From positions 1-41,385 of the forward strand of contig VGIA01000009.1 of NCBI GenBank assembly GCA_016868105.1: a stretch of DNA of 41,385 nucleotides, given 5' to 3'. This document shows positions 6,819-7,741 of the stretch, piece after piece. Numbering within the stretch: position 1 is the stretch's first letter; each line of letters opens with the position of its first letter. This DNA comes from Betaproteobacteria bacterium. Its GTDB lineage: Bacteria > Pseudomonadota > Gammaproteobacteria > Burkholderiales > SG8-39. The notes beneath the pieces were generated by a model. It searched no databases, was not told the origin of the DNA, and was given only the letters and a program-made list of their open reading frames with translations. Position numbers and translations under genes: made by a program.

Positions 6819-7073
6819 CTACTGCATGGGCGGGTGGGCCCGCAGCGCTTTCCCGTTGGGATCCATCCCCCATCCGGGGACTTCCGGCATCACCAGCTCC
6901 CCGTTCTCGATTCGCGGCGCGCCGCCGAACAGTTCGTCGTCCCACGCCAGGCGATCCATGTCCACTTCCATGACTGGCGTACGCCTTCGAGGTCCGTGAT
7001 CGCCGGCTGGTACCACTCGCCGTGGGCGATGCGGCAGGTGGCCGCGTGCGACCCGTAGAGGGGTAATCTTCAT
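6819..7073 (-). pseudogene. Relic of a mandelate-racemase/muconate-lactonizing-type enolase: start-like MKITPLRVA joined to C-terminal ~45 aa
   Basis: EVDMDRLAWDDELFGGAPRIENGELVMPEVPGWGMDPNGKALRAHPP resembles the C-terminus of MR-type enolases; barrel absent. Confidence 0.55.
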
Positions 7074-7111
7074 GCCGTGACTCTAGCGGAACCCCGCGGC
7101 AAGGAGGAAGG

Positions 7112-7741
7112 ATGACCCGGACCGGGGGCGCGCGCCGCGCGCCGCGCAAGCTGGTCTGCCTCGAGACCTACTGGTCGGACCGCTATCCGCACGCCTTCCG
7201 CGAGCGCTCGGTGCGCCCGTTCTTCGAGGGCCTCGCGGCGCAGCTTGACCCGCCGCTCGCCATCGCGCACCGCTTCCTGGACTCGCCGGCGCAGCTGGCG
7301 GCGTACACCCGGCGCCGCGAGGGACTGCTTTGGCGCGACCCGGAGGCGTTCGACACGCCCGTCTACTACCTGTCCTTCCACGGCTCGCCCGGGAAGATCC
7401 ATACCGCGCTGGCGAAGATCGGCCCGGCGGCGCTGTGCCGCGCCTTCGCCGGCTGGGGCAGGGGCTACGACAACCTGGTGTACTTCGGCGCCTGCAGCGT
7501 GCTTGCAGGAGCGAAGGGAGAGCGCTTCGCGAAGGCGTTCCTGAAGGTTTCGGGCAGCCGCGCGGTGCTGGGCTACACCACGGACGTGAACTGGATGGAC
7601 AGCCTGCTGGCGGACCTCCTGTTCCTGCGGCGCTTCTACGCCGACCCCGATCCGTGGCGAAACCTGCGCGCCATCCACCAGTCGGTGCTCGCCGACTTCG
7701 CCCCTGCGCGGGCGCTGGGGCATAGCCTTTGCCTGCGCTAG
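7112..7741 (+). CDS. Hypothetical protein with caspase/CHAT-like His-Gly and Ala-Cys strand motifs
   Basis: 209-aa ORF; VYYLSFHGSPGKIH (H90) and NLVYFGACSVL (C128), then RAVLGYTTDVNWMDSLLADLLFL. Confidence 0.6.
   Translation: MTRTGGARRAPRKLVCLETYWSDRYPHAFRERSVRPFFEGLAAQLDPPLAIAHRFLDSPAQLAAYTRRREGLLWRDPEAFDTPVYYLSFHGSPGKIHTALAKIGPAALCRAFAGWGRGYDNLVYFGACSVLAGAKGERFAKAFLKVSGSRAVLGYTTDVNWMDSLLADLLFLRRFYADPDPWRNLRAIHQSVLADFAPARALGHSLCLR

Follow-up and report, generated by a model that had tools for sequence, protein, structure and literature searches.

Csx29 and SAVED-CHAT, two well-studied bacterial caspase-like proteases of the CHAT type (PF12770), carry large regulatory domains and have a role in CRISPR immunity. 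In Csx29, which is under TPR regulation, residues H615 and C658, 43 positions apart, are required for cleavage of Csx30 (PMC10028731). The window, by which we mean the whole stretch of 41,385 nucleotides analyzed here (contig VGIA01000009.1 of the Betaproteobacteria bacterium assembly GCA_016868105.1), encodes a far more compact relative. A sequence-only reading had pointed to the segments VYYLSFHGSPG and NLVYFGACSVL, whose codons are found at the places given for them and whose H90 and C128 are separated by 38 residues as opposed to the 43 of Csx29. Regulatory domains such as TPR or SAVED are absent from the window protein, and its whole length is exceeded by the CHAT region alone, which spans about 325–370 aa in the full-length members of our CHAT alignment (A3). 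Its likeness to CHAT lies in the best structural match, in the register of the HG and C motifs, and in the segment that follows the Cys. With caspases, metacaspases, and orthocaspases (Peptidase_C14), it shares the caspase fold and an HG and C that align with caspase-3 and bacterial C14, but the bacterial C14 profile reads GHG...D-x-C whereas the window protein reads FHG...AC and lacks an Asp at the second position ahead of the Cys. Legumain and asparaginyl ligase (C13) and gingipain (C25) resemble it as members of clan CD, with sequence matches that are weak and below threshold. Taken as a whole and with its role included, the explanation that we find probable, if by no means assured, is that the protein is a soluble, cytoplasmic, stand-alone clan CD cysteine endopeptidase.

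The protein is encoded on the forward strand by an open reading frame of 209 codons that starts with ATG (7112 to 7741). A Shine-Dalgarno-like AAGGAGG (7101 to 7107, forward strand) lies 4 nt 5′ of the start, and the homologue at locus L003 has one upstream too. The three codon positions have G+C contents of 0.68, 0.53, and 0.93. Relative to close homologues dN/dS is near 0.15, with a range of about 0.09–0.16 for the nearest ones (dN 0.048 and dS 0.327 versus L003; dN 0.056 and dS 0.355 versus L005), which resembles the values for the flanking MFS, DUF2817, and MetE-like genes. Because of this codon-position signature and the low dN/dS, the frame is a genuine gene under purifying selection and not a chance frame. 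Homologues, a structural model, and Foldseek matches likewise mark it as the gene for a stand-alone caspase-fold protein of 209 aa.

An AlphaFold2 (AF2) model of the window protein, built from 13 sequences, has a pLDDT of 83.1 and a pTM of 0.83. In this model, strand 3 (residues 84–90) terminates at His90 and strand 4 (residues 122–126) terminates two residues short of Cys128, in agreement with the earlier placement of both residues at the ends of strands. When the model was compared with 350,542 PDB chains by Foldseek, the SAVED-CHAT filament ranked first (E 2.5e-6, probability 1.00), caspase-11, -4, and -6 came next, and TPR-CHAT and separase appeared farther down the list. A second AF2 model was made of the L014 homologue (55% identical; pLDDT 74, with an N-terminal extension at low confidence) and retrieved caspases first, followed by separase, TPR-CHAT, MALT1, and C11 peptidase; its alignment shares most sequences with that of the window model, which makes it more a replicate than a wholly independent test. 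Against solved structures, the window model reaches TM-scores of about 0.5 and the L014 model 0.35–0.45, modest values of the size expected for a remote, smaller relative. Both models are alpha/beta sandwiches that match solved clan CD structures, and in the window model the conserved HG ends one strand and the conserved Cys lies past the next. The models and the profiles described below make it very likely that the fold is caspase/CHAT-like, as the sequence-only reading had proposed.

Profile comparisons provide a cross-check that does not use coordinates, and here the clan CD signal shows with alignments only and not with a single sequence. Searched alone against PDB chains with phmmer, the window sequence returned only unrelated matches (E≥0.47). 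A profile of 21 relatives (A2) placed caspase-3 at the top of the PDB sequences (E 0.047), with ancestral caspase-6 and asparaginyl ligase within five matches and with H and C in register in the caspase alignments shown. A profile of 11 very divergent members (A7) matched caspase-3 across 165 positions (E 0.01), and five of its nine matches belonged to clan CD (caspases, legumain, asparaginyl ligase). Each such sequence–profile match is marginal when taken singly (E 0.01–0.05). Profiles were also compared by hhalign with CHAT and C14 alignments assembled from related genomes. A7 scored 30.4 against CHAT (mean 12.8 and maximum 20.6 in 100 column shuffles) and 28.7 against bacterial C14 (maximum 25.0 in 100 column shuffles), and in both cases HG paired with HG and C with C. 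One of the two A2 comparisons, that with CHAT, was marginal, as 3 of 100 shuffles scored higher; A7, with more divergent relatives than A2, lifted the CHAT score over all 100 shuffles. Individual distant members gave weak, sub-threshold Pfam matches to CHAT, Peptidase_C25, and Peptidase_C13, all of clan CD. By eye, strand 5 and the next helix of the AF2 model (RAVLGYTTDVNWMDSLLADLLFLRRFY; 7559 to 7639, forward strand), in which Gly154 and Trp161 are nearly invariant, are similar to the post-Cys segment GARSLLVSHWxVxSxA...F of the CHAT alignment. The register of HG and C with caspase, CHAT, and metacaspase in these profiles makes His90 and Cys128 a well-supported candidate catalytic dyad.

The nearest family in Pfam is DUF6642 (PF20347), to which the window protein scores 19.8 bits (E 6.5e-4), under the gathering cut-off of 27 bits. 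DUF6642 is recognized in 17 of the 21 A2 members (best E 8.2e-25), and a tblastn search with the window protein retrieves, at E 9e-7, a Brevibacterium relative annotated as DUF6642 (68.9 bits, over the cut-off). Through such intermediates, the window protein is homologous to accepted DUF6642 members. Among 399 genomes of the window's phylum, the DUF6642 model found the window alone. The family is without an assigned function in Pfam, and the collection of papers searched contains no mention of it. Neither CHAT nor Peptidase_C14 (PF00656) matched the window protein at E≤1, so that it falls short of both gathering cut-offs, and NCBIfam gave no match; one distant relative scored 14.1 bits against CHAT (cut-off 24). 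By these sequence relationships, we class the protein as a divergent DUF6642 relative within an unassigned minimal caspase-fold family. A minimal unassigned family was one of two origins that the earlier reading had entertained. The other, a piece broken from a larger module, was rejected because the homologues are full-length, stand-alone proteins with the same end points.

A scan of GTDB genome contigs provided 12 homologues, 11 from betaproteobacterial metagenome-assembled genomes (MAGs) and one (L014) from a MAG with the title Syntrophobacter. In the genus of the window, a homologue is present in 10 of 13 genomes, one of which has two copies. MAG G888 holds two copies (L003 and L007), one for each of the genomic-context subgroups described below, and these are either paralogues or the result of a mixed bin. 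The sampled genomes from other genera of the window's family and order contained no homologue, nor did a sample of its class beyond the window genome. The phylum of the L014 genome supplied more distant relatives, as did two further genomes from the window's own phylum, of which the stronger one alone, L073, entered the alignments. Others are carried on plasmids of Brevibacterium, Rhizobium, Paracoccus, Pseudomonas, Vibrio, and Salmonella. One of these distant relatives lies on a 4-kb Salmonella record (L076, 803–1387), adjoining an LprI-family gene. All aligned relatives are stand-alone proteins of about 190–340 aa, mostly about 190–260 aa. Homologues of the Desulfobacterota type (L014, 7821–8010; L023, 1324–1500; L022, 1–100) bear an N-terminal Cys-rich segment with about eight conserved Cys/His residues, which has no Pfam match and low model confidence and is perhaps a metal or redox switch. 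The shortness and low model confidence of this segment also count against the fragment idea.

On one side of the window gene lies a mandelate-racemase gene in decay, and on the other the gene for an MFS transporter. The decayed gene is a mandelate racemase/enolase-family remnant on the reverse strand (6819 to 7073) in which two internal stretches of several hundred bases have been deleted; an intact 390-aa version is present in the relatives L003 and L005. A MetE-like gene or its start is found upstream on the opposite strand in L002, L003, L004, L005, L006, L008, and L012, seven loci of the betaproteobacterial set of which L002 and L012 cover the same genome region, and this shared neighbor therefore indicates vertical inheritance with the chromosomal surroundings. 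In a second subgroup, the neighbors are DUF1272, cupin, a MarR regulator, enoyl-CoA hydratase, CoA ligase, RidA, and a fused FAD/FMN oxygenase-reductase. At L010 (2063–6407), L006–L009, and L012, the fused oxygenase-reductase and its neighbors resemble genes for 2-aminobenzoyl-CoA degradation. The stop codon of the L010 gene overlaps the start of the CoA ligase gene by 4 nt. Among the more distant relatives, acyl-CoA carboxylase genes adjoin L023 and an AMP-binding ligase gene adjoins L027. Because the searches of the order and the class gave nothing beyond the genus, any biological role read from these surroundings rests on few independent loci.

Several other explanations deserve consideration. 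The protein could be an anti-phage or abortive-infection protease effector in the manner of Craspase or SAVED-CHAT, one that cleaves a toxin or regulator upon infection in response to a sensor encoded elsewhere. SAVED-CHAT is the closest solved fold, and three distant plasmid relatives have neighbors that speak for this explanation: that of Vibrio (L077, 1510–4567) near a SIR2_2/AAA pair, that of Brevibacterium (L063, 11953–14779) near an Abi_C gene, and that of Rhizobium (L061, 94–3747) near NYN/AbiJ-like genes, including a weak AbiJ_NTD4 match. Because of these three neighborhoods, other members of the superfamily may have a role in conflict. In the window clade, by contrast, no defence gene, pore former, sensor, or nuclease partner is adjacent, and the neighbors are catabolic. 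The PADLOC profiles gave no match for the window protein and, for its relatives, a single chance-level match to KwaB (E 0.039), and no relatives were found by sequence among viral contigs and phage records. The predicted fold of an uncharacterized 320-aa Myoviridae protein in BFVD (A0A8S5MXG5) is similar (E 1.7e-6). A defence role in the window clade is unsupported because the gene is chromosomal, confined among the sampled genomes of its order to the one genus and present in most genomes there, as slow to evolve as its neighbors, and set amid genes for acyl-CoA and aromatic catabolism. We consider the effector explanation unlikely, and the part of the sequence-only reading that had suggested a piece of a defence or cell-death module did not hold up.

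Whether a caspase-fold protein is an enzyme at all can be approached through the residues that it keeps. The 13 close sequences share many invariant residues, H90, G91, C128, and S129 among them. The invariant set is E18, V34, Y86, H90, G91, C128, L144, G154, and W161 in the 21 sequences of A2 and E18, H90, G91, C128, and G154 in 12 divergent sequences (A6). In the 11 members of A7, most of which have 10–27% identity to the window protein, it comes down to E18, H90, G91, and C128 and nothing else. His90 (codon 7379 to 7381, forward strand, in YYLSFHG) and Cys128 (codon 7493 to 7495, forward strand, in VYFGACS), the candidate catalytic His and nucleophile, are thus retained in 13 of 13 close, 21 of 21 wider, and 11 of 11 very divergent homologues, a sample not fully blind to the two motifs in that some search patterns contained the HG or C segment. 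The pair singled out from one sequence is a property of the family, and neither a fold unlike that of caspases nor a loss of H90 or C128 in homologues, either of which would have told against the sequence-only reading, turned up. Judged from these alignments, conservation narrows to E18, H90, G91, and C128 in the way that an active site would. Glu18 (codon 7163 to 7165, forward strand), which lies close to where strand 1 (residues 13–20) ends and is invariant in A2, A6, and A7, is a candidate third catalytic or S1-pocket residue, and its invariance would be the most distinctive prediction for this protein. Caspases have an Arg of the S1 pocket near the equivalent place, and legumain has an Asn, not a Glu, near the end of strand 1. 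The conservation and the models suggest that the window protein is likely an active cysteine peptidase.

The same residues could instead belong to a non-catalytic scaffold or sensor, and H90 and C128 would then be structural or serve to bind a metal or ligand. Caspase-like domains that lack activity are common in bacteria and account for about 70% of those at the vWA effector position (PMC7159879). The extra Cys-rich N-terminus of the Desulfobacterota-type homologues would also be at home in such a protein. Against this explanation, the residues shared by every divergent member come down to E, H, G, and C. Inactive caspase homologues usually lose the dyad, and we regard a non-catalytic role as quite improbable. 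A different use of the Cys-His pair, for thioester hydrolysis, acyl transfer, or other acyl chemistry in acyl-CoA metabolism, would make the protein a caspase-fold enzyme that is not a peptidase. The recurrent acyl-CoA neighbors speak for this idea (the AMP-binding ligase and enoyl-CoA hydratase, the carboxylase and ligase at L023 and L027, and the overlap at L010), but acyl-CoA genes are probably plentiful in these genomes, so that the link may be chance. We know of no clan CD member that works mainly as an acyl-CoA thioesterase, and we hold acyl chemistry to be very improbable. That the HG and C pattern arose by chance within some other alpha/beta protein is scarcely credible, for although alternating alpha/beta folds match many families structurally, and WrbA and dehydroquinase were among the Foldseek matches of the window model, two models and several profile comparisons point alike to clan CD, with the His and the Cys of the motifs in register.

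If the protein is a cysteine endopeptidase, His90 would activate Cys128 to attack the peptide bond, and Glu18 would either orient His90 or line an acidic S1 pocket that prefers Lys or Arg at P1. With no sensor or pro-domain, control would come through expression, dimerization, a partner, or a ligand. The enzyme would cut one or a few substrates in a limited cleavage. The weakest step in this proposal concerns its purpose, which in the window's genus may be a constitutive regulatory or processing role tied to acyl-CoA and aromatic catabolism and not anti-phage cell death.

A broader and decidedly speculative view, to which we would give low odds, is that DUF6642 and its relatives make up a dispersed and hitherto unrecognized superfamily of minimal, sensor-free caspase-fold peptidases with an invariant Glu-His-Cys set and that, in some lineages, a conflict-type protease has become a chromosomally fixed, constitutive regulator of acyl-CoA or aromatic metabolism. 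If the peptidase explanation is true, a core-only family of 200 residues with one invariant Glu-His-Cys set would show to what size a clan CD peptidase can shrink, and a DUF family would gain a likely function. It would also serve as a simple test of whether the bacterial relatives of caspases take on everyday, non-death roles.
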